From the NCBI GenBank assembly GCA_947632515.1, contig CANRPO010000005.1:1-64000 (forward strand): a DNA stretch of 64,000 bases. Reading direction: 5' to 3'. The notes beneath the pieces were generated by a model. That model had not been told where the DNA came from. It was given only the letters and a program-made list of their open reading frames with translations, and did not search any database. The DNA is from an uncultured Lachnospiraceae bacterium. Its GTDB lineage: Bacteria > Bacillota > Clostridia > Lachnospirales > Lachnospiraceae. Shown here piece after piece: positions 956-50,440 of this stretch. Both the position numbers and the translations under genes were made by a program. Position 1 is the first letter of the stretch; the number at the start of each line of letters is the position of its first letter.

Positions 956-1098
956 TTGATTTTTACCGGCGTCATTGTATAATATACTTAAAATAATTAT
1001 AATTTTTTTTTTCAAATTTAAAGGTGCTCATTAGAGTGCCTTTTTTATATCTAAAAATCAATCCGCAATATTGCGGTTGAAATAAATCTAAAAAAAAG
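956..1098 (+). promoter_or_regulatory. Leader copy 1: promoter, GTATANTATAC, terminator-like hairpin, second hairpin
   Basis: TTGATT (956-961), 16-bp spacer, TATAAT (978-983) inside the palindrome GTATAATATAC (977-987). A purely A/T stretch ends in AAATTT, then a hairpin (AAGGTGCTC/GAGTGCCTT, about 1021-1042) runs into a T tract. A second perfect stem CCGCAAT/ATTGCGG (1063-1076) follows, then the SD aaaggaggt. The same order recurs at 7319, 11990, 16242 and 24929. What is seen is the order and shape; regulation by attenuation is inference. Confidence 0.7.
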
Positions 1099-1115
1099 AA
1101 GAAAGGAGGTCATTT

Positions 1116-1478
1116 ATGGCCAGAAACAACATTATGAGGAATGCGGTTTATAACAACCAGGTTCCGGAGCTAATGAAAGGGCGTGCATACCGGCAGCCCC
1201 ATGTTATCCGCCGTCACAGAAGACCGGAGACGCGCAAAGTTATCTGCACAGAAAGGAAAACGGGCCGTAAGACTACCGGCATCGTCTTTCCCGGCGGGAA
1301 AGTGTATGTCGGTGATGACGTCTGGAGGCTGAGCAACAGAGCTGATTGCTGTGAATATCCCTTCCGTGGATATGTCAATCTTCAGGTCGCGGCAGTTGAC
1401 TATGAGATCCGGGAGGCCGACACAACGTTTCCCGAATATGCTCAAAAACCCGAAAGGGGGTATGCAGCATGTGTATGA
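1116..1478 (+). CDS. Unknown protein, first gene of the RNR operon
   Basis: A 120-aa protein I do not recognise. The N-terminal half is strongly basic (residues 20-50 rich in Arg, Lys and His, including RRHRRPETRK), which would suit nucleic-acid binding; the rest looks like a small beta-rich domain with a Cys-Cys pair near residue 99. No membrane segment or signal peptide. It has a strong SD (aaaggaggt) behind leader copy 1 and overlaps the nrdG start by 10 nt, so it is translationally coupled to the ribonucleotide reductase genes. A role in dNTP supply or its control is only a context guess. Confidence 0.6.
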   Translation: MARNNIMRNAVYNNQVPELMKGRAYRQPHVIRRHRRPETRKVICTERKTGRKTTGIVFPGGKVYVGDDVWRLSNRADCCEYPFRGYVNLQVAAVDYEIREADTTFPEYAQKPERGYAACV

Positions 1479-2035
1479 CCAATTTCCGTTATCATAACAT
1501 CACCCATGATGATATGAGAAACGGTACCGGTCTTCGGGTAGTTTTATGGGTTGCAGGATGCGCTCACCACTGCAGAGGTTGCCACAATCCTCAGACGTGG
1601 GATCCGAACGGCGGGCTTGATTTTACGCCCTGGGAGGAAAGCGAACTCTTTGAGTGGCTTTCAAAGCCCTGGACGGAAGGCGTTACCTTCTCCGGCGGTG
1701 ATCCGCTCCACCCCGCGAACCGGGACGGTATCGGTGAACTGGCAGCGAAGGTGAAACAGTTATATCCGGAGAAGAATATCTGGGTATATACAGGCTATCA
1801 CATGGAAGTTCAGGATGGACATTTCCTTTTCTTCAACCGGAAAAGAGAAAGTTTCAATCTTCCATGGCTGCAACTGGTTGACATTCTCGTGGACGGACGT
1901 TTCGACGCCAAAATACGGGAAAAGAATATCGCGGCGAACGCACTGCCCCACTGGCGGGGATCCTCCAACCAGAGGCTCATTGATGTGCAGGCGTCTCTTG
2001 CTGCGGGAGAAATCGTGGAAAGGAGTGATCTGTAA
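1469..2035 (+). CDS. nrdG: Anaerobic ribonucleotide reductase activating enzyme NrdG
   Basis: A 188-aa radical SAM activase that installs the glycyl radical on NrdD using S-adenosylmethionine and a [4Fe-4S] cluster. The cluster motif is C31-x3-C35-x2-C38 in AGCAHHCRGC, followed by HNPQTW; the GGDP-type SAM-binding segment (TFSGGDPLHP) comes next. The length is normal for the family (about 150-200 aa). Its stop is immediately followed by the ATG of the next gene. NrdG usually lies next to or after nrdD; here it precedes nrdD and is separated from it by two paralogous small genes. The enzyme works only without oxygen, which supports an anaerobic host. Confidence 0.93.
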   Translation: MCMTNFRYHNITHDDMRNGTGLRVVLWVAGCAHHCRGCHNPQTWDPNGGLDFTPWEESELFEWLSKPWTEGVTFSGGDPLHPANRDGIGELAAKVKQLYPEKNIWVYTGYHMEVQDGHFLFFNRKRESFNLPWLQLVDILVDGRFDAKIREKNIAANALPHWRGSSNQRLIDVQASLAAGEIVERSDL

Positions 2036-2407
2036 ATGGTTTCAATTCTGAAAAGTCTCACTATCCTGGCCGAAAAGTACGGTTTTCAGGTGGCGGAGAC
2101 AAAAGAAGAAATCGGTCTGTACTGCACGGCCGCGAACGGGCATAAGAGAAAGTGGCTTTCTTACAGGAAAGCCACCGATCAGGCTCATCTCGCCGGAGAT
2201 ACGGTGCTGTGTAATCTCTGGTTTTCCAAGACCAGACCGGATCTTACTGCAGAACGGCTTTTAGAGTTAGTTCCCGACTTAAACGATGCGCTGGATATGG
2301 GCGAGCCCTATCTTCTGCGTGAGCTGATCGGGAAAAAGGATTGGGAGGCCATCGCCGGAATCGACAATGCCGAAGAGGATCCCCGATGGAGCAGAAATAT
2401 ATTTTAG
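2036..2407 (+). CDS. Unknown protein, tandem paralogue A between nrdG and nrdD
   Basis: A 123-aa soluble protein of unknown function that starts directly after the nrdG stop (SD aggag at 2021-2025). It is clearly homologous along its length to the next gene: both have LAEKYGF or LAEEYGF near the start, a WLSY or WITY segment, NLWFxKTRPDLTxER in the middle, and an LLRxLI..DWxxIAGI..A C-terminus. The pair is a tandem duplication with substantial divergence. No catalytic motif is recognised. Position within the RNR operon suggests a link to dNTP synthesis or its regulation, without proof. Confidence 0.65.
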   Translation: MVSILKSLTILAEKYGFQVAETKEEIGLYCTAANGHKRKWLSYRKATDQAHLAGDTVLCNLWFSKTRPDLTAERLLELVPDLNDALDMGEPYLLRELIGKKDWEAIAGIDNAEEDPRWSRNIF

Positions 2408-2421
2408 GAGGAAACACATAC

Positions 2422-2790
2422 ATGGAAATCAGCATGAAAATGAAAAAACTGGCCGAGGAATATGGTTTCCAGGCCAGAACGTCAGGTAACACTACTGCCC
2501 TGTTCTGTAAGGACACCGATGGTCATGTTTGTAGGTGGATCACTTACGATCAGAAGAAGGCCTGCTGTACAATAGCAGGCAATACCGATCATCTGAACCT
2601 CTGGTTCTGCAAAACCAGACCGGATCTGACGCCGGAACGCATCATCCGGTTTGTAAAGGATCTGAATGCGGTGTTTGAAACGGAGAATGCAATCCTTCTT
2701 CGGAATCTGATTGATCCCGAAGACTGGCAGGAAATCGCGGGCATCCGGGACGCATATGAGGATGACCGTTACAGGCTGAACAAAATTTGA
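2422..2790 (+). CDS. Unknown protein, tandem paralogue B between nrdG and nrdD
   Basis: A 122-aa protein homologous to the preceding gene, with the shared core NLWFCKTRPDLTPER around the middle. The start at 2422 is chosen because of an SD (aggagg, 2406-2411) at good spacing; an in-frame start upstream lies inside the previous gene. It has more cysteines than paralogue A (for example a CC pair in the KKACCTIAG region). No known domain is recognised. The intervening sequence to nrdD contains its SD (aaaggagga). Confidence 0.65.
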   Translation: MEISMKMKKLAEEYGFQARTSGNTTALFCKDTDGHVCRWITYDQKKACCTIAGNTDHLNLWFCKTRPDLTPERIIRFVKDLNAVFETENAILLRNLIDPEDWQEIAGIRDAYEDDRYRLNKI

Positions 2791-2870
2791 AAGTTTGAAA
2801 GCGAGGTGCAAAAACCCATGTTTGAACCATTCAGATGTGAGAGTTGTGCTTACGAAAGGAGGAAGATCTT

Positions 2871-5951: not shown

Positions 5952-5960
5952 ACTCAGATG

Positions 5961-7318: not shown

Positions 7319-7497
7319 TTGCAATTTTCTCACATTGAACGTATAATATACCCATAAATATTATTAATTTAATTTTTTATGAAATTTAGCAGAGGAACTT
7401 GCCGTTCCGCTGCTTTTTTTGCGTTCAAAAACAATCCGCCTCGGCGGTTGAAGATAGAAACAAAAATTATAAAAAGGCTTAAAAGCCGGGAATGGAG
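7319..7497 (+). promoter_or_regulatory. Leader copy 2 (MoxR/VWA operon)
   Basis: TTGCAA (7319-7324), 17-bp spacer, TATAAT (7342-7347) inside GTATAATATAC (7341-7351). After an A/T-only stretch ending AAATTT, the hairpin GCAGAGGAAC/GTTCCGCTGC (7389-7413) runs into seven T. The second hairpin CCGCC-TC-GGCGG is at 7436-7447, then AAGATAGAAA and the SD. The first hairpin is almost identical to that of copy 4 at 16312. Confidence 0.75.
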
Positions 7498-11989: not shown

Positions 11990-12187
11990 TTGCATTTGTA
12001 CTTAAAACTTTGTATAATATACACATAATAATTACAAAATTTTATTTTTTAAAATTTCAATCCTCATTCGGGGGTTGTTTTTTTTATGAAAATAATCAAC
12101 CGTATTTTGAAGAGGTTGTTGATATAGATGAAACTATAAATATTATATTTTAAATCCAGATCCGGAACGGACTGGTAGAAAGAGGTT
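11990..12187 (+). promoter_or_regulatory. Leader copy 3 (SSB operon)
   Basis: TTGCAT (11990-11995), 17-bp spacer, TATAAT (12013-12018) inside GTATAATATAC (12012-12022). A/T stretch ending AAAATTT, hairpin CAATCCTC/GGGGGTTG (12058-12076) with eight T, then a longer second hairpin ATCAACC/GGTTGTTGAT (about 12094-12123). The remaining 60 nt are A/T rich and lead to the SD agaggt. Confidence 0.65.
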
Positions 12188-16241: not shown

Positions 16242-16402
16242 TTGCTTTTGTATCGCAATTATCGTATAATATACACATAAAATATTACAAATTTTAATTT
16301 TTTAAAATTTAGCAGAGGAACCTGCCGTTCCGCTGCTTTTTTTGTGCTTAAAAATAATCTTCCTTCGGGAAGTTGAATAATAGAAAGAATTTAAGAAGGA
16401 GG
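16242..16402 (+). promoter_or_regulatory. Leader copy 4 (exonuclease/helicase operon)
   Basis: TTGCTT (16242-16247), 17-bp spacer, TATAAT (16265-16270) inside GTATAATATAC (16264-16274). A/T stretch ending AAAATTT; hairpin GCAGAGGAAC/GTTCCGCTGC (16312-16336) with seven T; second hairpin CTTCC-TTCG-GGAAG (16359-16372, a UUCG tetraloop in RNA) followed by TTGAATAATAGAAAG and the SD aaggagg (16396-16402). Confidence 0.78.
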
Positions 16403-20698: not shown

Positions 20699-22672
20699 TT
20701 ACATAAAAATCTCTCGCACGGTTTCCTTTAATCTTGCAAGGGGAATGATGGAAAGCAGTTTCCCGCGTATATCCTTTCTCTTTACATACGGATCGTCCCA
20801 GAACCGGGAGTCTTCTGAGTTTTCCCTGTTATCTCCCATCACAAAATAGCATCCTTCCGGAATATCTTCAAAATCCTTAAAGGAATTGGTTTCCGTGTCC
20901 TGCGGTAAATAGGATTCGTATACCGGTTCTCCGTTGATATAGACATACCCGTCAATAAACATGATGGAATCACCGGGGATGCCTACTATCCTTTTGATCA
21001 GTGTCTTGCCATCCGCAGCCCCGGCATGTCTGAATACAACAACATCTCCCCTCTGCGGCTCACGGTTCAGATAAGCAAGCCCGTTCGATATGGCATAATC
21101 GCCGACCATCAAAGTGGGTTCCATGGAGGACGAAGGAACCCAACCGCCCATTATGATCCTGGTAAAAAAAAGATAACTGCATACACAACATGCTATTCCG
21201 ATCAAGAGCGGAACCACCCGGGATTTAAGCGCCCTTTTCTCCCTTGCCTGTGCAGGCTCTTTATTATCTTTTTTCTCCTTCTTGGGCTTTTGAGGCTTAT
21301 CTTCCCTTTTTTCCGAACCGCCCTTTTTCTTTCTCCACAGCCTGATTGCTATGCCGATGATCAGTACCAGTCCCACGCCAACAGGCCATGCATAGTCCCA
21401 GATCGTCGTTTCCCTGACAGCCTTTGTTACAACGGCTGTATACAGTGTTTCATTTCCCGCAATGTCCGCTGCCCTGACGTTCAATACATTCTCGCCATCC
21501 CGCAGGATATATTCCGACTTAAAAGAACCGTCTCCCGCAACGACCGGCTCCGTCTCATTGATCATGAATGTATCATAGTCCCTGATCGTGCCGGTGATCG
21601 TTATTGTATCATCATAGGTGGTTATCCCGTCATACTCCATATCCAATGTAAGCGCCGGTTTAATGCTGTCACGGATCACCGTATAAGACGTGGAGCGCAT
21701 GTTGTGATCTGCATCTACCACATAAGTAAGCACTTCGTTTGTTCCCTCCGTTACGGGAACATCATAAACATACTCTCCTGACGCCAAAATACCCGTTTCC
21801 TTTACCTCTTCACCGTTTACAAGGAACAGCAGCGAATAACTGTCAGAAAGATTGACCGTTACGGGTATCGTATCTGTGTTCACATACTCTTTATCCCCGT
21901 ATGTCACAACAGCATCAGGCTCGTTTACCACCGGGATGTTAAATCTGCTGTTTGCACCGGTAATGTTTGATGAAGTTGCCGGAACTATATCCACCGTAAT
22001 CTCCGTCACAAGTTCCGGGATCAGAAATTCGTAGTATCTGTCCGTCACCGTTTTGGTATCAAGGATCTGGTCCGTATAGGAATCTATAACAGATACCTTA
22101 ACATTGCCGCAACTGGTATCGGTCCATTCCACCACTATGCTGTCATCTTTAAAATAAAGCTGCAATCCGACTATATCCCGCGCAATCTGCACATTCCCGA
22201 TAGAAAAAGCCGTCTTGTCAATGGCTTTCGCTGTAACCTGAATCTTTCCGATCAGTTCCTCCGCATCAACAGGCTCCGCTTGCGCCTCCGGCTCTGCCTC
22301 CGCATCTGCGGACGCGTCCGTTTCCTCCTCCGTGTCTTCCTGCCTGTTTTCAGCCGACGTTTCCCCTGTGACTCTCTGCGTTACAGTTACATCCCAACGT
22401 CCCGCCTTTACATTTTCTACGCTTACGGTACATACGTTGGTATCTTCCATGCTGCCCGTATAGGTTTCCGTACTGTTTTGCGGATGTAAAGTCACATCAA
22501 AGTCGCCCTCCTTCTCCGTTGTAATCTTAAATTCGCACGCCTCATAATCCTTCGCAATTTCAAAGGTGATCTTTTTGCTGACAGATCCATCCGCCTCATC
22601 CGCCATAAATGAACCGATTAATAATAGAGCAAGCGATACAAAAACAGATGCAAAAAATATATGCTTTTTCAT
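20699..22672 (-). CDS. Membrane protein: Ig-like ectodomain fused to signal peptidase I
   Basis: A 657-aa protein. A signal or anchor segment (residues 5-22) is followed by about 400 extracellular residues of beta-sandwich, Ig-like character with an acidic Ala/Glu linker near 107-138, a membrane segment (429-446), a Lys/Glu-rich cytoplasmic linker, another membrane segment (487-507) and a type I signal peptidase domain. The peptidase has catalytic Ser516 (PSSSMEPTL), Lys560 (LIKRIVGIPGD) and the MGDNRENSEDSR box. Ordinary signal peptidases of this group are about 180-200 aa; the N-terminal fusion is unusual. It may process plasmid pilin or surface proteins. Transcribed alone from 22744-22713. 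Confidence 0.9.
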   Translation of the reverse strand: MKKHIFFASVFVSLALLLIGSFMADEADGSVSKKITFEIAKDYEACEFKITTEKEGDFDVTLHPQNSTETYTGSMEDTNVCTVSVENVKAGRWDVTVTQRVTGETSAENRQEDTEEETDASADAEAEPEAQAEPVDAEELIGKIQVTAKAIDKTAFSIGNVQIARDIVGLQLYFKDDSIVVEWTDTSCGNVKVSVIDSYTDQILDTKTVTDRYYEFLIPELVTEITVDIVPATSSNITGANSRFNIPVVNEPDAVVTYGDKEYVNTDTIPVTVNLSDSYSLLFLVNGEEVKETGILASGEYVYDVPVTEGTNEVLTYVVDADHNMRSTSYTVIRDSIKPALTLDMEYDGITTYDDTITITGTIRDYDTFMINETEPVVAGDGSFKSEYILRDGENVLNVRAADIAGNETLYTAVVTKAVRETTIWDYAWPVGVGLVLIIGIAIRLWRKKKGGSEKREDKPQKPKKEKKDNKEPAQAREKRALKSRVVPLLIGIACCVCSYLFFTRIIMGGWVPSSSMEPTLMVGDYAISNGLAYLNREPQRGDVVVFRHAGAADGKTLIKRIVGIPGDSIMFIDGYVYINGEPVYESYLPQDTETNSFKDFEDIPEGCYFVMGDNRENSEDSRFWDDPYVKRKDIRGKLLSIIPLARLKETVREIFM

Positions 22673-22712: not shown

Positions 22713-22744
22713 GTATACTATACAATATATTTGCGATATTGCAA
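22713..22744 (-). promoter_or_regulatory. Promoter and operator of the signal peptidase fusion gene
   Basis: Minus strand: TTGCAA (22744-22739), 16-bp spacer, TATAGT (22722-22717) inside the palindrome read on + as GTATACTATAC (22713-22723). Confidence 0.65.
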
Positions 22745-22801
22745 GAGATTCCGAAGAAAAAATTTGAGAAAATAACATTTCCATTTTGTAAAATATACTG
22801 A

Positions 22802-22875: not shown

Positions 22876-23610
22876 ATGAGAAAATTTACAGAATCGGCGT
22901 CAAGTTTAGTTATTGGCAGCAGGATTTCCCTGATTCGGAGAGCAAATAAATATTCCCAATCGGATTTAGCATTACTGCTATCCGATTTAACCGGATCAAG
23001 AAAATCCCCCATGCTTATTTCGCATTGGGAAAACGGGCGGCGTGTTCCGGATGAAAAAACCATATCTCTTTTCGCGGATTACTTTAACGTGACCGAGGAG
23101 TATCTCAGGGGATATACGGATGACCCTCAATCAACAGAAACGGAAAGGAACGAAGTGAACATTCGGTTAAAACCGGAAGATTATGGCAAATTTGACGGCA
23201 AGGTTGTTTATCTTGCATTTGAGAACTATGAGCATGAAGACCAGCCCGCCATTGTAAATTACCAAAAACATTCATTTATCGTTAAAGACGGAAAAATCCC
23301 TTTTATGAGCGAATCCATCCGTGCTGTTTATGTATCTGAACCGGACTACATGCGTTACAAGTCCTTCAATGGAATGCACCCCATTGATATGGCAACGCTT
23401 TTAGATGACAAAAACAACCTTTTCTGGGTCGAAATGAAATCTCCGGACGCAATAGTCCGAACCAGATATAACGGTTGGTATCGGCGCAGCGAAAAAGGGT
23501 TCTGTCTCGTCAGCGAAACGGAAGGATATGTATTACCCTTTGAAGGACTTAACCTTTCCTACTATGCGTATGTTGGGAAAGACACCATACGAAAAACATC
23601 CGGCGACTGA
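22876..23610 (+). CDS. XRE-family transcriptional regulator
   Basis: A 244-aa regulator. The N-terminal helix-turn-helix (about residues 14-76: SRISLIRRANKYSQSDLALL, ISHWENGRRVPDE, ISLFADYFNVTEEYLRG) is a classic Cro/C1-type domain. The C-terminal ~150 residues form an unrecognised domain without the LexA-like Ser/Lys dyad, so it may bind a ligand or oligomerise. It is encoded divergently from the signal peptidase gene. It is one candidate for the protein that binds the repeated GTATANTATAC sites, which flank it on both sides. SD aaggagga. Confidence 0.88.
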   Translation: MRKFTESASSLVIGSRISLIRRANKYSQSDLALLLSDLTGSRKSPMLISHWENGRRVPDEKTISLFADYFNVTEEYLRGYTDDPQSTETERNEVNIRLKPEDYGKFDGKVVYLAFENYEHEDQPAIVNYQKHSFIVKDGKIPFMSESIRAVYVSEPDYMRYKSFNGMHPIDMATLLDDKNNLFWVEMKSPDAIVRTRYNGWYRRSEKGFCLVSETEGYVLPFEGLNLSYYAYVGKDTIRKTSGD

Positions 23611-23657: not shown

Positions 23658-23699
23658 TTGCCTTTTATAAAACAACGCGCTATAATATGTATACTATAC
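23658..23699 (+). promoter_or_regulatory. Promoter plus downstream GTATACTATAC palindrome
   Basis: TTGCCT (23658-23663), 17-bp spacer, TATAAT (23681-23686), then GTATACTATAC (23689-23699) across the expected start of transcription. The -35 overlaps the T tract of the preceding terminator. Confidence 0.6.
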
Positions 23700-24940: not shown

Positions 24941-25080
24941 TTTTTGTATAGTATGATATACATATATAATTATAATTTTCATATTTCTTAATTTAAGGAA
25001 TCCTTTCCGGGTTCCTTTTTGTTTCCCTAAAAAATCCGTCTTTGACGGTTAAAAATAGAAAATTAAAAAAAAGAAAGGAG
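24929..25080 (+). promoter_or_regulatory. Leader copy 5 (25-kb operon)
   Basis: TTGAAA (24929-24934, inside the end of the preceding gene), 17-bp spacer, TATGAT (24952-24957) in GTATGATATAC (24951-24961, one mismatch to the palindrome). A/T stretch ending AATTT; hairpin AAGGAATCC/GGGTTCCTT (24995-25017) with T tract; second hairpin CCGTC-TTT-GACGG (25036-25048) then TTAAAAATAGAAA and the SD aaaggagg. Confidence 0.7.
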
Positions 25081-27710: not shown

Positions 27711-28526
27711 CTAATTGATTAATCCCTTTACTCTTTTTTTGTTCTCATACGATCCGATTTTTGCAAGCAGTTCGCCTGTTAAGTTTTCGTAATCGCCTGA
27801 TACCGCACTTTTTTTATAGTAGTGGATCGGCTTACCGAACTCCTGGGCGTTCACAACATCCGACGCGTCGCGGATGAAACTTGTGAAGAAACTTCTTCCA
27901 TTTCCTTTTTCCTTCCAGAAAGTCCTGTAATACTCTTCCAGTGCCCTTCTTTTATCAACTCTGTTCAGGAAGACCCCAAGAATTTTCAGGTTCACATTGA
28001 ACCCGTTCTGTTTCATGGAGTCGATTTCCTGTACAACGATTCCATACCCGGTCACGGAATCCCGGCCTGCCATGGCGGGAATGATAAGATACTCTGCCGC
28101 GCAAAGCGCATTGATCGTCATGCAGGTAACGGAAGGCGAGCAGTCGATGAGACAGAAATCAAACTGATCGGCAACCTTTGACAGAAAATCACGGATAATG
28201 TACATGTTCTCGGTTGAAATCTTATCCATATCTCGCACCGCGGGAACAATATATATCTTTGTATCTGCGTTCTTTTTGTCCGGCATCTTCGCATTATATA
28301 TTACCCTGTCCGGGCTTATATCCGGATTTGAGAAGATGTCAAGGAGACTGTATCTTACCTTATCAATATCATGCAGCATAAGATATGATGTTGCATTTGC
28401 CTGCGCATCCGTGTCTATGATAAGCACCTTTTTCCCTCTGACTTTATCAAGACAGCCTGCTATGTTCACACAAGATACGGTTTTCCCTACACCGCCTTTT
28501 CGGTTATAGATTGCTATCGTTTTCAT
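27711..28526 (-). CDS. parA: ParA-family partition ATPase
   Basis: A 271-aa Walker-type ATPase. MKTIAIYNRKGGVGKTVS holds the deviant Walker A KGGVGKT (residues 10-16); LIIDTDAQANAT is the A' motif and FCLIDCSP the Walker B. It lacks the N-terminal DNA-binding domain of type Ia ParA, so it is type Ib-like or chromosomal Soj-like. The start at 28526 follows a minus-strand SD (gggaggg); longer in-frame extension upstream would pass through the promoter. Works with ParB to position plasmid copies. Confidence 0.95.
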   Translation of the reverse strand: MKTIAIYNRKGGVGKTVSCVNIAGCLDKVRGKKVLIIDTDAQANATSYLMLHDIDKVRYSLLDIFSNPDISPDRVIYNAKMPDKKNADTKIYIVPAVRDMDKISTENMYIIRDFLSKVADQFDFCLIDCSPSVTCMTINALCAAEYLIIPAMAGRDSVTGYGIVVQEIDSMKQNGFNVNLKILGVFLNRVDKRRALEEYYRTFWKEKGNGRSFFTSFIRDASDVVNAQEFGKPIHYYKKSAVSGDYENLTGELLAKIGSYENKKRVKGLIN

Positions 28527-28574: not shown

Positions 28575-28607
28575 GGATATTATACAAAAACGCTCCCAAT
28601 TCCACAA
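28575..28607 (-). promoter_or_regulatory. Promoter of parAB with a near-match operator
   Basis: Minus strand: TTGTGG (28607-28602), 17-bp spacer, TATAAT (28584-28579). GGATATTATAC on + (28575-28585) is the GTATANTATAC palindrome with one mismatch, overlapping the -10. Confidence 0.55.
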
Positions 28608-28673: not shown

Positions 28674-28704
28674 TTGACATTTGCATAATTATAGTATAGT
28701 ATAC
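28674..28704 (+). promoter_or_regulatory. Promoter of the parM-like operon with GTATAGTATAC
   Basis: TTGACA (28674-28679) with TATAGT (28695-28700, 15-bp spacer) or TAGTAT (28697-28702, 17-bp). The palindrome GTATAGTATAC is at 28694-28704. Divergent from parAB. Confidence 0.6.
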
Positions 28705-30364: not shown

Positions 30365-30407
30365 TTGCAAATGATCCTGTTTATGCTATCCTTATTGTAT
30401 ACTATAC
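30365..30407 (+). promoter_or_regulatory. Promoter of the type IV secretion operon with GTATACTATAC
   Basis: TTGCAA (30365-30370), 16-bp spacer, TATCCT (30387-30392), then GTATACTATAC (30397-30407) over the start of transcription. The block CGCTTGCAAATG and following bases closely match the virD4 promoter at 44246. Confidence 0.6.
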
Positions 30408-30918: not shown

Positions 30919-32955
30919 TTGCAAACAGCTATCTTCAATCCCATCATTTGTACTACCCTACCCTTTACGGATCTGGTAGAACCCATGATAGAGGGTTCAA
31001 CCAACTATGTCTATTTGAGCTTAACCAAAATATTTGTTCAGGGAGTTTATTGGTTTTTACAGGCTTTTGATGCCTCCAGCCAGGCGTTCTATTCCCTGAT
31101 CGGTATATCAGACTATAATGCCCCTTTGTTTGATGTTTTTTTGTGGACAGGAGGCTTATTGGCTCTGTTTTTATTTTTATATCACGCATTCGTGACTACA
31201 CTCGGACCTTTGGTAGATCAGAAAAACAATATCATTGAACTTGTCATCAGGTTTTTTATTACGATTGTTTTTGTTGTCATAGCGCGTCAGATATGCGGAC
31301 TTCTCAACGATTATATCTGTAACGCTGCTTTTAACAGTCCCGGGGCCAAATCATTAGCAGCCAGATTTTCCGAACAATACATGCACTCACTCAATAACTC
31401 CATAAATGAGTCCGTAAGTGTATCTGAATTTCTGGGATCCTCTCTCGAAGTTTATAAGGATACCATGACAGCATGTTTAATTATTGAAATCATAGCGATT
31501 ATCGCTGTCGGCATCAGTTTTGTCAAGCTCCTGCTAAAGTGTATCGAACGATATGTATTGTGCCAACTATTGATCATTGCCTCTCCGGTTGCTTTTGCAA
31601 CATGGGCCAGCCGCACCACGTCTAATATACTCTCAAATTTCATCCGTATGTTTATAACAACACTGTTTACGATGCTTTTTTGCAGAGTCTATCTGTACAT
31701 GATCTGTTACATGATTACAAACGGCGCATGGATGCATCTGGGAGGTGCATTGATTCTTTTGGCATTTATGAAACAAGTTGAAAACCTGGAGGCGCAGCTT
31801 AGAGCAATGGGCTTATCCGTCGCACAGACCGGGGGATCTCTTTTGTATTCCATCGGCGCAGGCGCTTTAGGTCTTGGCATGATGCTGAGAAAAGGCGGCA
31901 ACTTTGCAGGCAACATTCTCGAAAGATCCGGCGCCGTGAAGGGAAACGTGGGTATGGCCTCCATCGGTACTCACTTAAAATCCCTCTCTCACGGCCAGAT
32001 GCCTACCCGGGCACAGACTATCCGTGCTTTTGGGGAACAGGAAGGCTTTGCAAATGCCAGCCGGGGCAGCAAAGACCAGTATGCTCAGATGGTGAACAGG
32101 GTTGCGGACCTGGCAAAGTCCGGGCAGATCATGAATCTGAAAAATGTCCCCGCAAATATCCAGACCGACGCTATAAAACAGATGTTTACGGAGAACGGCT
32201 ACGACGCTTTTGCCTATGCCACGGGCGGTCTCGGTGCGGATTCCATTACTTCCGCTCATTATAACTTCGACGGATCCGTAACCGGCATGGCCGAAAAAGA
32301 CGGCCAGATCATCAACTTCAAGGCAGGCACGGAGGTTGACGCAAACGCAAAATCCTATGGTATAGTTGACAACTTTGGCGGTAGCAGCCGCTATGTGACA
32401 ACAACTGCCGGCAAGAATTATGAAGGAACCCTTTCCTGCGACTTTTCCAAACTTGCGCCCGGCCAGCAGTCCATTGTAAGCACGATGACAAATCTGCCGA
32501 TTGATAATGCCGCCTTTTCCAAAGCAGGCATTAAAAAAGTCGGTATATCTGACGGCATCATGCACTGCTACGATTCCGGCGATAACTTGAAATTTGCCAC
32601 CAATATGTCCGACCCCAACAGATCTTACTATGTCGGCAGCAAGGATCTGCCTATCTGCGGGCAAAGCGAGATTCTGGCAGAAGGTTCCCCCTATTCGGGC
32701 ATTTCAGGCATGCTCCCGGAAGGCACCGTGCCGACCAAAAGCGGCATCACGGAAACCGAGGACGGCAGCCGCCGATTCGACTATAACTCCGCATCCGGTC
32801 CCGGTATGGTTGTTTTGTCAAAAGCCTCTGACAGCGACATAACTCTTAATTCCCGGTCAAACCTTGTGAATATGGGAGAATACGGAACCATGAAGGTCGA
32901 TATTATTCCTCAAAAACAGGGCGGATATATCAATAACAAAACCGGTCAAAACTAA
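30919..32955 (+). CDS. VirB6/TrbL-like conjugation membrane protein
   Basis: A 678-aa protein with several membrane helices in the first ~300 residues (VFLWTGGLLALFLFLYHAFV, LVIRFFITIVFVVIARQI, CLIIEIIAIIAVGISFVKLL, FMLFCRVYLYMICYMI-type segments) and a long hydrophilic C-terminus with a Gly-rich and repeat-like beta structure (about 400-670). This is the layout of VirB6/TrbL channel proteins of Gram-positive T4SS. The TTG start at 30919 is chosen because an SD (agaggtg) ends six nt before it; the in-frame GTG upstream is part of the SD. The large C-terminal tail is atypical. Confidence 0.8.
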   Translation: MQTAIFNPIICTTLPFTDLVEPMIEGSTNYVYLSLTKIFVQGVYWFLQAFDASSQAFYSLIGISDYNAPLFDVFLWTGGLLALFLFLYHAFVTTLGPLVDQKNNIIELVIRFFITIVFVVIARQICGLLNDYICNAAFNSPGAKSLAARFSEQYMHSLNNSINESVSVSEFLGSSLEVYKDTMTACLIIEIIAIIAVGISFVKLLLKCIERYVLCQLLIIASPVAFATWASRTTSNILSNFIRMFITTLFTMLFCRVYLYMICYMITNGAWMHLGGALILLAFMKQVENLEAQLRAMGLSVAQTGGSLLYSIGAGALGLGMMLRKGGNFAGNILERSGAVKGNVGMASIGTHLKSLSHGQMPTRAQTIRAFGEQEGFANASRGSKDQYAQMVNRVADLAKSGQIMNLKNVPANIQTDAIKQMFTENGYDAFAYATGGLGADSITSAHYNFDGSVTGMAEKDGQIINFKAGTEVDANAKSYGIVDNFGGSSRYVTTTAGKNYEGTLSCDFSKLAPGQQSIVSTMTNLPIDNAAFSKAGIKKVGISDGIMHCYDSGDNLKFATNMSDPNRSYYVGSKDLPICGQSEILAEGSPYSGISGMLPEGTVPTKSGITETEDGSRRFDYNSASGPGMVVLSKASDSDITLNSRSNLVNMGEYGTMKVDIIPQKQGGYINNKTGQN

Positions 32956-35593: not shown

Positions 35594-35625
35594 TTGCAAA
35601 TGTTTTTGATTATAGTATAGTATAC
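35594..35625 (+). promoter_or_regulatory. Promoter of PrgI/VirB4 genes with GTATAGTATAC
   Basis: TTGCAA (35594-35599), 16-bp spacer, TATAGT (35616-35621) inside GTATAGTATAC (35615-35625). The palindrome is extended by TATAGTA on the left and TATAA on the right. Confidence 0.7.
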
Positions 35626-39817: not shown

Positions 39818-40106
39818 GCGTTTGGGCCTGTCTCAAAAACGTGCTAATTGCAATCGAAAAAGGTGCAAAAAAAGGATAGTTTAAAAATATTCCAAAAACA
39901 CCCTTTTCAACGGCATTTATATTGTGGTTTTCTGGCTTTTCTGCCGGCCGTTGTCCTTGGGTGTTAAACACAAAAGGACACGTCAAACACCATAACGCGC
40001 GGCATGGAAACGGAAAACGGAGTGGAAAAACGCAGAGACGGGAAGTAGCGAAATATGGGTGCAGAAAAGGCGGCATGTGGAAAAATCAGAATAAGGGTGA
40101 AGTAGA
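39818..40106. other. 289-bp intergenic region without a recognised gene
   Basis: Purine-rich on the right half. It contains an inverted repeat with arms GGTGTT and AACACC around 39959-39991. No promoter of the plasmid type is seen. An origin of transfer could lie here, but there is no relaxase in the window and no known nick-site motif is recognised. Confidence 0.3.
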
Positions 40107-41285
40107 GTGAATAATAAAAAGAACTATAAAAAAGGGTATAAGAATGAGATGATACAACTGCTGTGTCTCGTAGCGGTAATGCCGTATCGGAGTCTCCGCT
40201 TGCTATCAGACAACCACCGCATGTATCAGAGGGCAGTGAAGGAGATGGAAGAAGACGGGACAGTGGTGGTGGATAAGCGCGGCGGCGAGAAGAATATCCG
40301 CTTGCTGAACTATGACAGGCGGCGGGGAGAATATGAGGATTACGTTCCGAAGGAATATGCGGCTTATTACGAAGAGACGGCGAGGGAAAAAATCAAGGCA
40401 TTAAGCGACGAAGTAAATAAGGCGGCATCAGAGCGGGTCATGAAGAACAGCGCGACGCAGATCATGATGTATGCAGGCGATATAGATATAAGCCCGGACA
40501 AGCGTGATCTGCGTCGCGAGATGATGGAGGACAGCGACCTTGCCTATTACACGTCCGGGGAACTGAAACAGATTGAATCCTATCGCGACACGGTAACATA
40601 CCGGAATGAAAAAGGAGAAAAAAGCAAAAAACTGTCAAATTCCAGAATCAGCGGCTTGCTGGTATCACCAGGCGGGATATACGCAGTCTATCATATAGGC
40701 GAATCCCTGATCGAGTGGAAAAAATTCGGCGAAGTCAAGATGGCGGCGTACATCACCCGGATTATCAAGCAAAAGAGCATGTCCGACGTCAGCGCGGACG
40801 AGCCGAAAAATGCAATCGTAATAGCCAGAAACGATAAACTTTTCGTAAAAATATGCAACAGCAGTTATCGTAAGAATGAAAAAGTGGTCATCATGAACAT
40901 GGAGTACGCTTACGACAGACTGTATGTTATTCCGGAAGACAGAAACGGAGTCCTGCTTTTAAAAATGATGGCTGTAAACGGCTGGCGGGGCAGAATCCTA
41001 AATTCGGTTCTTTCAAGAGAAGAACAGATGGCCTCGGCAGAAGTAAGCGTGGACTGCGACGGTTATGATGCGGAACACGGAATTTACAAACTCGTATTCT
41101 GCATACCCAATCTGATCAAACTGAAAGCATTTATCACGAGGGCTCTTCTGGAAAATAACAATCAAAAAAGCTATCAGATCTATTGTTTCAGTTTCCAGAC
41201 GGAAATGGTGGCAGAACTCATAGGGAAGTATGGAACGATACTGACCGTAGATGTAAAAAAGTTTTACGAGGAATATTTCAACTGA
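40107..41285 (+). CDS. Unknown protein next to the origin, replication-relaxation-like N-terminus
   Basis: A 392-aa protein with a GTG start (SD gggtgaag upstream). The N-terminal ~60 residues (MIQLLCLVAVMPYRSLRLLS, then MYQRAVKEMEEDGTVVVDKR) form a winged-helix-like unit, as in plasmid replication-relaxation or MobC-type accessory proteins; the rest is an unrecognised alpha/beta region. It sits between the transfer genes and the iteron origin, so a role in relaxosome or origin control is plausible. It is not a relaxase: no HxH or catalytic Tyr motif is evident. Confidence 0.5.
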   Translation: MNNKKNYKKGYKNEMIQLLCLVAVMPYRSLRLLSDNHRMYQRAVKEMEEDGTVVVDKRGGEKNIRLLNYDRRRGEYEDYVPKEYAAYYEETAREKIKALSDEVNKAASERVMKNSATQIMMYAGDIDISPDKRDLRREMMEDSDLAYYTSGELKQIESYRDTVTYRNEKGEKSKKLSNSRISGLLVSPGGIYAVYHIGESLIEWKKFGEVKMAAYITRIIKQKSMSDVSADEPKNAIVIARNDKLFVKICNSSYRKNEKVVIMNMEYAYDRLYVIPEDRNGVLLLKMMAVNGWRGRILNSVLSREEQMASAEVSVDCDGYDAEHGIYKLVFCIPNLIKLKAFITRALLENNNQKSYQIYCFSFQTEMVAELIGKYGTILTVDVKKFYEEYFN

Positions 41286-41391: not shown

Positions 41392-41402
41392 GTATATTAT
41401 AC
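41392..41402. promoter_or_regulatory. GTATATTATAC palindrome upstream of the candidate small RNA
   Basis: Perfect match to GTATANTATAC. It contains a minus-strand -10 (TATAAT at 41401-41396). Confidence 0.6.
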
Positions 41403-41690: not shown

Positions 41691-41733
41691 AATCCGATAA
41701 ATACGCGGTTTGCAGGCTCAACCTACGGTTGCG

Positions 41734-41910
41734 GATGTAGGTAAAAACGGTGATGAATGTAGACAGAAACGGATGAAAATGTAGGTAAAAACGGCATCCG
41801 GTGTAGAAAACGGAGTCCTGATCTGCGGTGACGGATGTAGACGGAAACGGTTCAAAAGTAGATAAGAGCGGTTAAAAATGTAGATAAGAGCCGTAAATAT
41901 GTAGAAAGCG
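41734..41910 (+). repeat. Iterons: eight direct repeats with ATGTAG core
   Basis: ATGTAG-type cores start near 41735, 41757, 41779, 41801 (GTGTAG), 41835, 41856 (AAGTAG), 41878 and 41899, mostly 21-22 bp apart with one 34-bp step. Each core is followed by a purine-rich segment ending in CGG. Spacing of two helical turns is typical for initiator-binding iterons. They lie upstream of the Rep_3-type gene. Confidence 0.85.
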
Positions 41911-41988
41911 GGGTCGGAGAGAGCCGACAGGCAGGAGCGGAATACCGAAAAGGACGGAAAACCGCAGTTTTTCAGAGGAAACGGGCGC

Positions 41989-42661
41989 CGTCCTGCGGTC
42001 GAAATGTAGAAAATAGGAGTGAGAATCCGGAAAGCGGCCGTAAAAACTACAAAATGACCGCAGGACGTAAGGCAGAAACAATATATTGATGATCGGCCGG
42101 CTGCATACTACATCATAGGGACGACCTACGGTTAAAATGTAGAAAAAGTCTACACGCATAGGGCCGGTGATACCGGCATTTAGGGAGCGTCCTGCGGTCA
42201 GTTTGTAGAAAATAGGAGTGAAAGACCGGAAACTGGAGCGTAAAACCACAAACTGACCGCAGGACGGGGAGAAAAATCAAGATATTGGCAGATGAAAGCG
42301 TAACACCACATAATCCGGGGCGACCTGCGGTTAAAATGTAGAAACAATCTACAAAAAGACGGCAGATAAACCAGCCGTTTTGAACTGACCTACGGTTAAA
42401 ATGTAGAAAAACAGGGTGAAAATCAGAAAATCAGAGCGAAAATCTACAAATTTACGGCAGGACGCAGGAAAAATCTACATATTGTAGTTTCCGAAAATAC
42501 AAGCTACATGATATGGTATATATGCGGTCGAAATGTAGAAAAAATCTACATACCAACCGCATGTCAGACTGAAAAACTGGCCAGACCTGCCGTGAATTTG
42601 TAGAAAATCGGAGTGAAAACCCGGAAACGGGAGCGGAAAACTACAAACTGACCGCAGGACG
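41989..42661. repeat. Array of inverted iteron hairpins between the iterons and rep
   Basis: Four long hairpins have arms of about 20 bp reading GTCCTGCGGTC...TGTAG and CTACA...GACCGCAGGAC: 41989-42067, 42188-42266 (20 of 21 arm positions pair), about 42388-42464 and about 42583-42661, each with a 35-40 nt loop of conserved shape. Short hairpins with ATGTAGA/TCTACAT arms lie between them (near 42137, 42337, 42533). The iteron core is thus repeated in both orientations. Function is inferred to be origin control. Confidence 0.75.
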
Positions 42662-42840
42662 AAAAAAACCGTGACTGCGTCTTTCGGATTGGACATGCCG
42701 TCGCGGTCCGTAAGAACGGGAGAGTGAGGAAATCTACAAATTTAACCGTGTGCAGATCCCAAAAACCGAAATATTGGAAGAGTTTTCAGCGTCAGCCACA
42801 ACATCTAGTTATAACCTACAGATAAATTTGTAGAATTTTA

Positions 42841-42870
42841 TTGACACAACACAGGAATATCATATATAAT
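42841..42870 (+). promoter_or_regulatory. Promoter of the replication initiator
   Basis: TTGACA (42841-42846), 18-bp spacer, TATAAT (42865-42870). No GTATANTATAC site; an inverted TACAG/TTTGTAG iteron-like pair lies just before it (about 42817-42835), which may serve autoregulation. Confidence 0.7.
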
Positions 42871-44248: not shown

Positions 44249-44299
44249 TTGCAAATGTTCCGCATTCTGCTAATATTTATCCAACAGAGTATAGTATAC
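44249..44299 (+). promoter_or_regulatory. Promoter of virD4 with downstream GTATAGTATAC
   Basis: TTGCAA (44249-44254), 16-bp spacer, TAATAT (44271-44276), then GTATAGTATAC (44289-44299). The CGCTTGCAAATG block matches the T4SS promoter at 30363. Confidence 0.6.
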
Positions 44300-46838: not shown

Positions 46839-46853
46839 GTCGGAAAAAAATGG

Positions 46854-46906
46854 TTGTTTAATTTAAAATTTATGCTATGATTGTAGCATAACAATGTATA
46901 TTATAC
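46854..46906 (+). promoter_or_regulatory. Promoter of the surface-protein cluster with GTATATTATAC
   Basis: TTGTTT (46854-46859), 16-bp spacer, TATGAT (46876-46881), then GTATATTATAC (46896-46906). A small hairpin ATGCTA/TAGCAT overlaps the -10 region. Confidence 0.55.
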
Positions 46907-46933
46907 CATTATGGAGCAGAGGGAGAAAAGTAA

Positions 46934-47407
46934 ATGAAAAATCAGAAAATGACAAAGGATGCAGTTATGATCGGATTGGGCGCGGGGGCGGTATGCGCGG
47001 CGGCACTTTCAGCGCTTACCTTCCATGAGAAAAAGGAGCGGAAAGAGCGGTTAAGAAATTCCGCGCTTGCCATATGCCCCATCTGTGGCACTATCCTCAC
47101 CACCAACAATGAATGTCCCGCATGCGGCGGTCATTTCCACCCATGTCCTTCCTGCGGAAAAATGATGAAGGACACGGCATGTTTCTGTAAGCACTGCGGT
47201 ATGGAGAACGAAGACGCAAACTACTGCACGCTCCGGGGATTCAGATACAAAGTACCTAAGAGGGAGCCGGAGTCTAAGATGGAGGTAAACCATTCGTACT
47301 GCAGCTGCGGCACGCCGTTTGCCCCTGACGCAAAATACTGCCAGTTCTGCGGGAAAGTAAGGCCGAAACCGGGAGAGAGTTATATCAGAAAGGATTTGCC
47401 GTCATGA
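46934..47407 (+). CDS. Multi zinc-ribbon membrane protein
   Basis: A 157-aa protein. One N-terminal membrane helix (AVMIGLGAGAVCAAALSALTF) is followed by at least three zinc ribbons made of CPIC/CPAC, CPSC/CKHC and CSC/CQFC knuckles. Such proteins often serve as scaffolds in membrane complexes. It overlaps the next gene by ATGA. Function unknown. Confidence 0.65.
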   Translation: MKNQKMTKDAVMIGLGAGAVCAAALSALTFHEKKERKERLRNSALAICPICGTILTTNNECPACGGHFHPCPSCGKMMKDTACFCKHCGMENEDANYCTLRGFRYKVPKREPESKMEVNHSYCSCGTPFAPDAKYCQFCGKVRPKPGESYIRKDLPS

Positions 47408-48231: not shown

Positions 48232-48248
48232 GAAGGGAGGAAGTAAGC

Positions 48249-48581
48249 ATGAAAAAGAAGATAATTCTTGCGGCAGTCGCAACGGCAGTATGTATTGCGG
48301 CATTTGGAACCGGGGTTTGCGCAGCCGTGTCTTCCTGGACGGTGGAAGATGCCTTTCGCCACACCATACGTTCAAACGGACAGTTTGTGTATGACTATGA
48401 CGAAGACGGAGACTTTTCGGGTGAGAATGATGTAGTGCTGGATGCAGACGACATCAAAGCGCTTGACAGGAAGACCGAGGTAACAGTGTTCGGTAAGTTT
48501 GAACCGTATACGGACGAATACGGAGACAGCACGGGCACGGGTATCCTGCATCTCCGCATCGGAGAAAACCCGCAACAGTAG
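48249..48581 (+). CDS. Small secreted protein with a dockerin-like calcium loop
   Basis: A 110-aa protein with a signal peptide (AAVATAVCIAAFGTGVCAAV, residues 8-27). The mature part has DYDEDGDFSGENDVVLDADD, a run of acidic residues with the spacing of a dockerin or EF-hand type calcium-binding loop, and a beta-rich end. No second dockerin repeat is seen, so cohesin binding is not claimed. SD gggaggaag. May cap or modify the collagen-like fibre. Confidence 0.6.
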   Translation: MKKKIILAAVATAVCIAAFGTGVCAAVSSWTVEDAFRHTIRSNGQFVYDYDEDGDFSGENDVVLDADDIKALDRKTEVTVFGKFEPYTDEYGDSTGTGILHLRIGENPQQ

Positions 48582-48616
48582 AAAAAGTATGACCGTCCGG
48601 CAGAAAGGAGTATGTC

Positions 48617-50194
48617 ATGAAAGAAAAAGAGTTACATCTGAACAACTGGATAGTGAGAATCATCGGAATCGCGACCGTTCTGATTCTGCTTTTGTGTGTG
48701 ATGATCGGAGCGCAGTCCGAAAAAAGGAAAAAAGATCTGCTGTATGGTGAGGCAACCGAGGCGGCAAAGGAGAATATCGCCGTGGAACTGAAAGAATACT
48801 TCGGGCAGTATCTCACCAATCAGAAAGGGGAACTGAAGGAACTGACCAATACCGTGGAGGCCATGCAGGACACGGGCGCCATGTCGATCGAACTGACCGG
48901 GGAACAGCAGGATCTCCTGATCGCCGGGGTCCTGGACAATCTTACCCCGGAAAAGATAATGGAACTGGCGGACGTAAACAGAGAGGCATCCGCCAACGCG
49001 ATCACCGGTATGGAGAAAAATATCTATGACCGGCTGGTAGAAAAGTTTTCCGATTATTACGATGATGCAAGGCTGACGGATTCCCAGAGGGAGGCTGTCG
49101 CGGATGCCGTAACCGTCATCGTCGAGAAAAATATCTATGATGAACTGGAGAAAAGGTTTGAATCGCAGGAGAAGTACCTTACCGAAATAGAAAAGTCGAT
49201 TTCGGAAAAGCTGGATAAAGTGACCAATACGGTCAATAATTACCGGGAGACGGTAAAGGAACTGGAGACAAAGTTAAAGGTTGTCGAAAAGGATTCCACG
49301 AATCTTGAAGAAGTGGAAAAGCTGCGGGAAGAGCTGTCGGAGTTAAGCAAAAGCTATCAGTCTTTTGTCTCGACGGCGCAGCCTGCCATCAATATCGTCA
49401 CAAACCTTTCCGTAGCTCCTACGGGAGACAACGATGTGTTATCGGCGCAGGCGGGTTATACGCTTAACCAGAAAATATCCAACCTCAACGTTACGCTGAC
49501 GAACGCCTATGATGAGTTTGCGACGGAAATCACGCAAAAAGTGAATGACAACGACAAAAAGCAGAGCCGGAAACTCGCGGATGCCAAAGCAAACCTGGAA
49601 AGCCAGATCGCGGACAACACGGAGAAGATGAAACTTCTGGATGAGGCGAGACAGGCGGCGGAAAAGGCGCTGCAGACAAAATCCGAGGAGGACGTCAATG
49701 CTCTTAAGAACGCCATGAACAAACTCGGCGGCGACATGTCCGATGATCTGCAGGCGGCTTATGATTCCCTGATGGCTGCAGATACTTCCAATATGGAGGA
49801 AACGGGACGGATCATTGAGGCGCTTGAAGGCAGTCTGAACAAAGACATTGCGGCGGCCAACAATAACATCACCAGCCTGCGGTCCGATCTGAAAGATGCC
49901 GAGAATGCCTTGAAACAGGAGCTTGCCGCCACGCAGACGAACCTGGAGGGGCAGATACAGGCCAATGATCAGAAACAGGACCGGAACCTTGCAAACGCGC
50001 AGAGCACTTTACAGGGACAGATGGATGCAAATGATGAAAAGCAAAGCCAAAATTTAGCGGATGCCAAAAACAATCTGCAGCAGCAGATCCAGCAGATGGG
50101 AGATGACGTGAACAACAATATCGTTGCCAAACTGCCTACCTATACCTGGAGTGAGGACGGGAACCATTTGTCGATTTCCATTCCACAGCAGTAA
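48617..50194 (+). CDS. Membrane-anchored coiled-coil protein
   Basis: A 525-aa protein with an N-terminal membrane helix (about 12-35, IVRIIGIATVLILLLCVMIG) and a very long extracellular coiled coil. The last third holds repeats of about 22 residues of the form NDxKQxxNLADAKxNLxxQI (seen near 305-330 and 440-500). The C-terminus is a short TYTWSEDGNHLSISIP tip. Looks like a trimeric or dimeric stalk or phage-tail-fibre-like adhesin. Asn/Gln-rich composition. Ends at a strong terminator. Confidence 0.75.
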   Translation: MKEKELHLNNWIVRIIGIATVLILLLCVMIGAQSEKRKKDLLYGEATEAAKENIAVELKEYFGQYLTNQKGELKELTNTVEAMQDTGAMSIELTGEQQDLLIAGVLDNLTPEKIMELADVNREASANAITGMEKNIYDRLVEKFSDYYDDARLTDSQREAVADAVTVIVEKNIYDELEKRFESQEKYLTEIEKSISEKLDKVTNTVNNYRETVKELETKLKVVEKDSTNLEEVEKLREELSELSKSYQSFVSTAQPAINIVTNLSVAPTGDNDVLSAQAGYTLNQKISNLNVTLTNAYDEFATEITQKVNDNDKKQSRKLADAKANLESQIADNTEKMKLLDEARQAAEKALQTKSEEDVNALKNAMNKLGGDMSDDLQAAYDSLMAADTSNMEETGRIIEALEGSLNKDIAAANNNITSLRSDLKDAENALKQELAATQTNLEGQIQANDQKQDRNLANAQSTLQGQMDANDEKQSQNLADAKNNLQQQIQQMGDDVNNNIVAKLPTYTWSEDGNHLSISIPQQ

Positions 50195-50209
50195 TATTTC
50201 CGGCGGTCG

Positions 50210-50241
50210 GACGAGGCGCTATGCGCCTCGTCTTCTTTTTT
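50210..50241 (+). terminator. Strong intrinsic terminator
   Basis: Perfect GACGAGGCGC/GCGCCTCGTC stem with TAT loop and T-rich tail. Confidence 0.93.
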
Positions 50242-50409
50242 ATCCTTACGGATAAAAAATTTTTTTGGAAATTTCATTTTTTCTTTTTTTATACAAAGTT
50301 CTTCCTACACTTCCTTTTCTTACCGGTCTTTTCCATTTTGACTTCTCTCTTTTCCATTATTTCCTTTTCAATTCCACAAACTACCCCTTCTTTTGTATTT
50401 TTCGGCGGT

Positions 50410-50440
50410 TTGACGGTGTTTTTGTTATGGTATACTATAC
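50410..50440 (+). promoter_or_regulatory. Promoter of the wall hydrolase and pilus operon with GTATACTATAC
   Basis: TTGACG (50410-50415), with TATACT (50431-50436, 15-bp spacer) in GTATACTATAC (50430-50440). The ATG of the next gene is only four bases after the palindrome. Confidence 0.65.

Follow-up and report, generated by a model that had tools for sequence, protein, structure and literature searches.

Does the short palindrome GTATANTATAC, which recurs before many genes of one contig, mark a plasmid-wide regulon, and which protein would bind it? We addressed this question on a stretch of 64,000 nucleotides from an uncultured Lachnospiraceae bacterium (here referred to as the window), namely positions 1–64000 of contig CANRPO010000005.1 (C5, 140,209 bp), so that C5 coordinates equal window coordinates there. 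The source genome comprises 66 contigs with 3.13 Mb and is 84% complete. C5 encodes Rep3, ParM-, ParA- and ParB-like proteins, VirB4- and VirD4-like proteins, cell wall hydrolases, an anaerobic (NrdD-type) ribonucleotide reductase, SSB and YqaJ, and from this gene content it was therefore taken as a conjugative-type plasmid; no end overlap showing circularity was found on it. Judging from sequence, GTATANTATAC is highly probably an operator. That it belongs to a plasmid-encoded repressor, most likely the XRE-family protein encoded at 22876–23610, which would dampen the backbone genes, is the reading that we favor with modest confidence.

The first-pass annotation of the window had listed 13 perfect copies of GTATANTATAC and two one-mismatch copies (24951 and 28575). 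A pattern scan recovered all 13 at their positions as well as both one-mismatch copies, and three further one-mismatch copies at 22788, 31620 and 35620; the second of these falls inside a called gene (30919–32955) and the third overlaps the perfect site at 35615. With up to one mismatch the window holds 18 copies, versus a mean of 0.81 and a maximum of 4 in 100 dinucleotide shuffles. In the whole of C5, GTATA-N-TATAC is the commonest palindrome composed of 5-bp arms and one central base, with 25 copies versus 6 for the next, and merely 0.025 perfect copies are expected from intergenic composition. The core is sharp, as the 25 perfect copies are accompanied by only nine one-mismatch copies, and the central base is A in 13, C in seven, G in three and T in two of the perfect sites.

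Genome-wide, 38 perfect sites were found, versus 4 for a reversed-pattern control. C5 carries 25 of them, C43 (14.5 kb) five, C2 two and C58 one, while C3, C12, C27, C29 and C34 have one each; 33 of the 38 are thus on C5, C43, C2 and C58, and the rest of the genome is at background level. The motif density in the chromosome is therefore not equal to that of C5. These counts, together with a scan of 299 genomes of the family in which the source genome (G000) is extreme (38 versus 4), led us to reject the idea that the word is just the host's -10 style. The next genomes in that scan were G270 (22, control 20) and G173 (17, control 4), with sites dispersed over many contigs. C43 probably belongs to the same element as C5 or to a sister element, because it too carries the leader cassette described below. 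The sites C2:1364 (L021:1364) and C58:5166 (L027:5166), both perfect copies on contigs with chromosome-like genes, lie in copies of a promoter region also present at C43:13509, and C2:1834 is separate from these. The gene that follows this promoter region is similar on C43 and C2 and encodes a surface-type protein (SH3-like by eye); plasmid-to-chromosome crosstalk or placement at contig ends is possible for the C2:1364 and C58:5166 copies.

Predicted promoters and genes at the sites

We searched for promoters with TTG-type -35 boxes, TAnnnT-type -10 boxes and spacers of 16–18. This gave a sigma-A-type promoter for 24 of the 25 C5 sites, the exception being 41392; the same search was passed by 8.7% of 3000 random intergenic positions. 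Relative to these predicted promoters, the palindrome is placed as an operator overlapping the core promoter would be. At 16 of the 25 sites the palindrome contains the predicted -10, and at eight the -10 starts 8–20 bp ahead of the palindrome start, in agreement with the first-pass description of a -10 embedded in some copies and separate in others. The same annotation placed all the copies it listed between genes or at gene edges. Of the 25 perfect sites on C5, 23 overlap no called gene. As for the remaining two perfect sites, 35615 shares one base with a low-scoring open reading frame (ORF) of the opposite strand, which is probably spurious, and 50430 is within an ORF called at 50265–52196, with in-frame ATGs just before (50427) and just after (50445) it, so that this gene-edge site may fall in the first codons of its gene. 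An occurrence at nearly every promoter was overstated, since a perfect site is present in 22 of the 63 C5 gaps of at least 80 bp before a gene, or in 26 when one mismatch is allowed.

One plasmid-specific set of sites precedes ribonucleotide reductase, recombination, partition, conjugation and surface genes, and the same word stands at many backbone promoters while being at background level in the chromosome, as would be seen in a regulon. Four plus-strand copies of the form GTATAATATAC head leader cassettes: 977–987, with the -10 inside the palindrome, before gene 1116, a radical-SAM activase-like gene for the reductase (1469) and NrdD (2871); 7341–7351 before an AAA_5 ATPase (7505) and a VWA-type protein (9641); 12012–12022 before SSB (12191); and 16264–16274 before gene 16414, a YqaJ-type recombinase (16582) and a RecD-like helicase (18210). 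The cassette before gene 25089 is headed by the one-mismatch copy GTATGATATAC (24951–24961, plus strand). Between lepB (20699–22672, minus strand), which encodes a signal peptidase I domain protein, and the divergent XRE gene on the plus strand, a minus-strand site at 22713–22723 (read there as GTATAGTATAC) covers the predicted lepB -10, and the one-mismatch copy GTAAAATATAC (22788–22798, plus strand), 88 bp before the XRE gene, is a possible autoregulatory operator.

The other sites in the window, on the plus strand unless stated, are as follows. GTATACTATAC occurs at 23689–23699, 8 bp after a predicted -10 start and before gene 23722 (zinc-ribbon-like by eye), at 30397–30407, after a predicted -10 and before 30436, the gene following the parM operon, and at 50430–50440, at the start of an NlpC/P60 cell wall hydrolase gene whose start codon is uncertain. 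GTATAGTATAC occurs at 28694–28704 before parM (28738), at 35615–35625 before gene 35649 and the VirB4-like ATPase (35953), and at 44289–44299 before the VirD4-type coupling protein (44313). GTATATTATAC occurs at 41392–41402, upstream of a repeat-rich region before Rep3 (42924) and where no promoter was recognized, and at 46896–46906 before gene 46934 (zinc ribbon) and a collagen-repeat protein (47404). A one-mismatch copy on the minus strand (28575–28585) is 49 bp upstream of the called start of parA (27711–28526, minus strand).

A second palindrome of 18 bp, TGTCAA-N6-TTGACA, was observed over the -35 of a promoter subset, at C5 69538, 90142, 102316, 110910, 117605 and 122858 (these C5 loci fall in L016–L018) and near L020:2876. 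It is perfect at 122858 and has one mismatch at five loci, and the set includes the promoter of RecG (117692); two other one-mismatch copies are found elsewhere, at 32816 and 60434.

Syntenic plasmids and their promoter words

The XRE gene adjoins lepB in four syntenic plasmids: C5, a plasmid of another Lachnospiraceae genome (G143), pCY186 of Butyrivibrio proteoclasticus B316, and contig G544:C135 (128.6 kb), which comes from another family. The G143 genome as a whole has 14 GTATANTATAC sites versus 12 for the control, and 11 of the 14 are on its plasmid contigs G143:C12 and G143:C136, where simulations gave 0.13 expected. We infer that these contigs form one replicon, because their ends match two pieces of a single VWA gene. 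Ten of the 11 sites are intergenic and one is in a called ORF of 71 aa. The word precedes orthologs in both C5 and G143, namely parM (33 bp after the site), the operon that follows it, virB4 (342 bp) and a topoisomerase operon (the third gene after the site).

pCY186 has the same backbone order as C5, including YqaJ, the RecD-like helicase, lepB and the divergent XRE gene, and contains zero copies of GTATANTATAC. It carries instead eight copies of GTTCACNGTGAAC versus 0.005 expected; six of these are intergenic, three of them at parM, the virD4 operon and the lepB/XRE region. The parM promoters of G143 and pCY186 thus carry a palindrome as that of C5 does, and in these two relatives the same or a substitute palindrome stands at orthologous promoters. 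We also ranked the intergenic palindromes of each of the four plasmids in a blind scan. In C5 the top rank went to GTATA-1-TATAC, present in 23 of 132 gaps; the same palindrome took second place in G143 (10 of 112 gaps), and GTTCAC-1-GTGAAC led in pCY186 (6 of 167 gaps). A k-mer search of G544:C135 brought out AAAAGTGAT, which is not a palindrome, in 17 of 113 gaps versus 0.51 expected; by eye, it lies upstream of -10-like boxes.

Counting four words across the plasmids, with AAAAGTGAT on both strands, gave for GTATANTATAC, GTTCACNGTGAAC, GTATCATNATGATAC and AAAAGTGAT, respectively, 25, 0, 0 and 3 copies in C5; 11, 0, 7 and 1 in G143; 0, 8, 0 and 1 in pCY186; and 0, 0, 0 and 19 in G544:C135. 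GTATANTATAC and GTTCACNGTGAAC are mutually exclusive. By these counts, the promoter word, or set of words, is particular to each of the four syntenic plasmids. Replacement of the word at orthologous promoters would be a natural example of an entire regulon being rewired in concert, with possible consequences for plasmid coexistence. The G143 word GTATCATNATGATAC is a 15-bp palindrome in seven places of G143:C136 (44735, 63256, 65479, 65526, 67964, 68020 and 76157), and some of its copies adjoin genes whose C5 orthologs (RecG, RecD-like) have GTATANTATAC.

Other potential relatives gave little. In the plasmid collection, no DNA-level relatives of window positions 40000–64000 were found. A four-site cluster in G022:C1 was taken as unrelated, as two 20-kb stretches of it had no C5 homolog at E 1e-4. 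Besides G000 and G143, 17 family genomes show a Rep3 match; we examined seven of the eight best (G232 was left out), and none of the seven has a full-length XRE. Their counts of the word versus the control were 1/1, 1/1, 6/9, 4/9, 6/11, 7/5 and 6/9, without clear excess, and their Rep contigs have no site in six cases and one site in G122 (G122:C103).

The candidate repressor and its rivals

The XRE protein (244 aa), which the first-pass annotation had named as one candidate binder, has an N-terminal HTH_3 domain (PF01381, E 3.7e-8), as XRE-family repressors of mobile elements do. By sequence, and weakly by fold, this helix-turn-helix resembles those of ImmR of ICEBs1 (PDB 7t8i; ImmR chain E 3.3e-8 with profile A3) and P22 c2 (PDB 3jxb), whereas the C-terminal domain differs from theirs. 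ImmR acts on its own element. The AF2 model is modest (pLDDT 77.1, pTM 0.39); a fold search with it gave no match at E 0.001 or better and nothing convincing for the C-terminal domain. No NCBIfam family was found for the protein, PHROGs searches returned general transcription regulators and one family without known function, and viral contigs gave one partial match. Full-length relatives are rare: at a profile E of 1e-20 they occur in five of 397 family genomes (G000, G137, G143, G206 and G360), and one further genome, G544, was found among 392 of the order, while pCY186, L056 and L057 come from other collections. Both genomes that have the word on a plasmid are among the five. Moreover, the lepB/XRE intergenic region carries a local palindrome in C5 (the perfect site at 22713 and the one-mismatch copy at 22788) and in pCY186. 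Of 14 candidate binders among the C5 proteins, XRE, ParB and Rep3 had matches in G143, pCY186 and G544. XRE is the best candidate by its place beside lepB in four plasmids and by the palindromes of that region, and it seems slightly favored as the protein that binds GTATANTATAC.

Several observations weigh against this reading. The G143 lepB/XRE region holds only two-mismatch copies, and in the blind scan of G143 the first rank went to GTATCATNATGATAC (5 gaps). Two of the eight GTTCACNGTGAAC copies in pCY186 are inside genes. G544:C135 has XRE and lepB, yet it contains neither GTATANTATAC nor GTTCACNGTGAAC and no enriched palindrome in its 113 gaps, and is a counter-case to any rule of a palindromic operator in every such plasmid. 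The closest XRE relative, L056 (G299, 45%), lies at a contig edge, and that contig is chromosome-like and has no copy of the motif; the relatives in G299, G300 and G137 are on contigs without the word, and the XRE/lepB pairs of G137 and G300 are on stretches without the rest of the backbone. Around the XRE genes of G206 and G360 we examined 40 of 468 kb and 60 of 168 kb, respectively, and found no copy of the word and no backbone there, save for a ParB-like gene directly behind the G206 XRE gene (G206:C2 near 361538). XRE could therefore be a local regulator, because its relatives occur without the backbone and that of G206 adjoins a ParB-like gene. The G143 region and the G206 neighborhood slightly reduce the case for XRE. 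The sites on C5 are also not all independent, as six of the 25 stand at the front of copies of a single repeated leader cassette, and about six more have a -35 element in common.

The conservation of XRE is equalled by ParB (PF02195; 26562–27701, minus strand) and by Rep3, both of which are present in all four syntenic plasmids, and a ParB-domain protein is thus conserved alongside the regulon in G143, pCY186 and G544. ParB is the chief competitor of XRE, and it is conceivable, though rather unlikely, that ParB is the binder in a KorB-like manner, with distributed partition sites that also repress promoters. The one-mismatch copy before parA and the perfect copy before parM would suit it, and the operator of KorB is an odd-length palindrome with one central base, like GTATANTATAC. 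The best PDB match of ParB is a chromosomal ParB (E 1.7e-8), and KorB is matched weakly (E 0.012). However, the C5 sites are over or just after predicted -10 boxes and are not arrayed near parAB. In pCY186 repeats resembling TTTACATA form an array ahead of parA (by eye), which is likely a separate centromere, and GTTCACNGTGAAC is away from this array except for one two-mismatch copy.

It is unlikely that another plasmid protein is the binder, the candidates being a conserved 392-aa protein without family match (40107–41285, plus strand; winged-helix look by eye), Rep3, a BlaI-like protein (C5:126786, by eye) and two small XRE proteins (C5:70033 and C5:97043). The 40107 protein is matched in G143 and pCY186, but no tblastn match was found in G544. 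Rep3 is matched in all three and has its own repeat-rich region. The gene of the small XRE protein at C5:70033 sits behind two perfect sites; nevertheless, the small XRE proteins, the BlaI-like protein and a DUF5697 protein had no tblastn match at E 1e-3 in the word-bearing plasmid contigs of G143.

It is very unlikely that the palindrome is merely the plasmid's preferred -10 box or reflects a special sigma preference, the latter having been the alternative of the first-pass annotation. The 16 sites with the -10 inside and the form with N=A, which contains TATAAT, agree with this; but the -10 is separate and ahead at eight sites, N is not A in 12 of the 25, the rest of the genome is at background, and a quite different palindrome occupies the orthologous pCY186 promoters. 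The variable position of the -10 fits a repressor operator and not a sigma preference, since a sigma factor would fix that position and a repressor need not. Chance or duplicated cassettes can be practically dismissed: the cassette-borne sites and those sharing a -35 element would fit duplication, yet the remaining sites belong to neither group, far fewer copies than observed are expected, and duplication within C5 cannot account for the 11 sites of the separate G143 plasmid.

The proposed repressor, most likely XRE, would probably act as a dimer: bound over the -10 or the transcription start, it would keep RNA polymerase from some two dozen promoters of the plasmid. In an established host, such occlusion would dampen genes for replication support, recombination, partition, conjugation and the surface, and upon entry into a repressor-free recipient the promoters would fire together until the repressor builds up (zygotic induction). 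Repression by core-promoter occlusion is the best-supported mechanism by analogy with KorA, ArdK and Reg(p576); repression itself, the identity of the binder and the burst linked to transfer are what we infer. With a one-word operator, a plasmid regulon could be read from sequence and tested with one protein.

Plasmid-wide repressor regulons are already known, and the new points here are the operator word and an uncharacterized candidate repressor. According to the cited passages, KorA and KorB of the conjugative plasmid RK2 (IncP-1) likewise act through short palindromes at several of its backbone promoters, in one network over replication, partition and transfer (PMC4889941, PMC11790492). 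KorA, in contrast, has seven operators of 12 bp and of other sequence and acts with KorB, whereas here 25 perfect sites are on one contig in another host group and, unlike KorA with KorB, the second palindrome is seen only at a promoter subset. The KorA operator GTTTAGCTAAAC differs from our word, and no KorA family was among the Pfam hits of the 40 window proteins scanned. In R388, as far as the cited part describes it, backbone promoters (ssb, ardC, stability, type IV secretion system) are under plasmid repressors with negative feedback (PMC3937220), similar to our reading; there, maintenance and transfer have different main repressors (ArdK and KorA, with StbA overlapping both), whereas here one palindrome spans both.

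Reg(p576) of the pLS20 family is also similar, with several operons of a Gram-positive conjugative plasmid behind like regulatory regions (PMC8708921). In the cited portion of that work, DNA but not repressor enters the recipient, and the promoter fires until repressor accumulates; here autoregulation and a post-transfer burst would be the counterparts that we only propose. Reg(p576) is a predicted ribbon-helix-helix protein that binds TTATCCCnnTTATCCC beside four promoters, whereas our candidate is of the XRE family and the palindrome is over the -10 or start at 25 sites; the word also differs from the dual heptamer TTATCCC of Reg(p576)/EGeRS2. A literature search for the exact forms of the word and its IUPAC form returned, judged by titles, nothing on a plasmid regulon; a paper on the repressor LmrR contains GTATAATATAC once (PMC5428041). 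Likewise, judged by titles, nothing was found on regulators of large Lachnospiraceae plasmids from gut or rumen, and work on pLS20, RK2, RA3 and R388 was returned instead; the regulation of such conjugative-type plasmids seems little studied. Word replacement and the leader cassettes are the parts that could go beyond known regulons.

Leader cassettes and neighboring features

A promoter-leader cassette of 135 nt is present in 14 copies, 13 on C5 and one on C43 (L020:8921–9069, minus strand). Its layout is a promoter, an AT-rich leader, a terminator-like hairpin and a second hairpin. The window copies, all on the plus strand, are at 977–1096, 7341–7475, 12012–12142, 16264–16398 and 24951–25076, and the further C5 copies start at 76745, 80281, 83075, 106155, 113551, 120421, 130452 and 138676. 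Six are headed by the perfect word (977, 7341, 12012, 16264, 83075 and 113551) and four by a one-mismatch copy (24951, 76745, 80281 and 130452), those at 106155, 120421 and 138676 have neither, and the C43 copy lacks the perfect word. On C5 the cassettes are approximately 140–230 bp before the next called start codon, and they precede the ribonucleotide reductase, AAA/VWA, SSB and YqaJ operons among others.

When each copy was folded individually, all 14 showed a hairpin with a T run behind it; the folding energies were -10.0 to -15.3 kcal/mol, and the stem sequences differ. Of 100 random C5 segments, 13 passed a less strict threshold of -7. The best fold of cassette 12012 has two stems. RNAalifold on the leader alignment gave the second hairpin alone (5 pairs, covariation term -0.17). 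A search at E 1 gave no cassette in the seven further contig pieces of the source genome that it covered, nor in pCY186, the G143 contigs, 20 kb of G137, L056 or L057. Rfam had no match in the window and two tRNA matches on the rest of C5. By eye, G544 has promoter-leader-terminator regions of unrelated sequence before SSB and other genes.

Attenuation or antitermination of establishment-type genes is a possible role of the cassette, and antitermination is known in Gram-positive conjugation operons from the cited parts of two papers (PMC8955417, PMC11658703). We tentatively propose a two-layer establishment program, although it is doubtful as a whole: one repressor would act on about two dozen promoters, the cassette would add a terminator and a hairpin behind it, so that the DNA-handling genes (ribonucleotide reductase, SSB, YqaJ and AAA/VWA) would require read-through as well, and the operator would be replaced wholesale across syntenic plasmids (GTATANTATAC, GTTCACNGTGAAC, perhaps AAAAGTGAT), giving mutually blind regulons.

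Two neighboring regions of C5 may also be mentioned. Window positions 41720–42850 contain about 1.1 kb of repeats before Rep3 (AAATGTAGA and GCGGT words), including a 100-nt unit four times at a spacing of 197–199 bp, and are perhaps a replication origin. C5 69273–70437 (L016:5273–6437) contains tRNA-Glu(TTC), a weaker tRNA match (69671–69734) and the small XRE gene (70033–70356), and the two promoters ahead of this gene carry the form GTATAATATAC.

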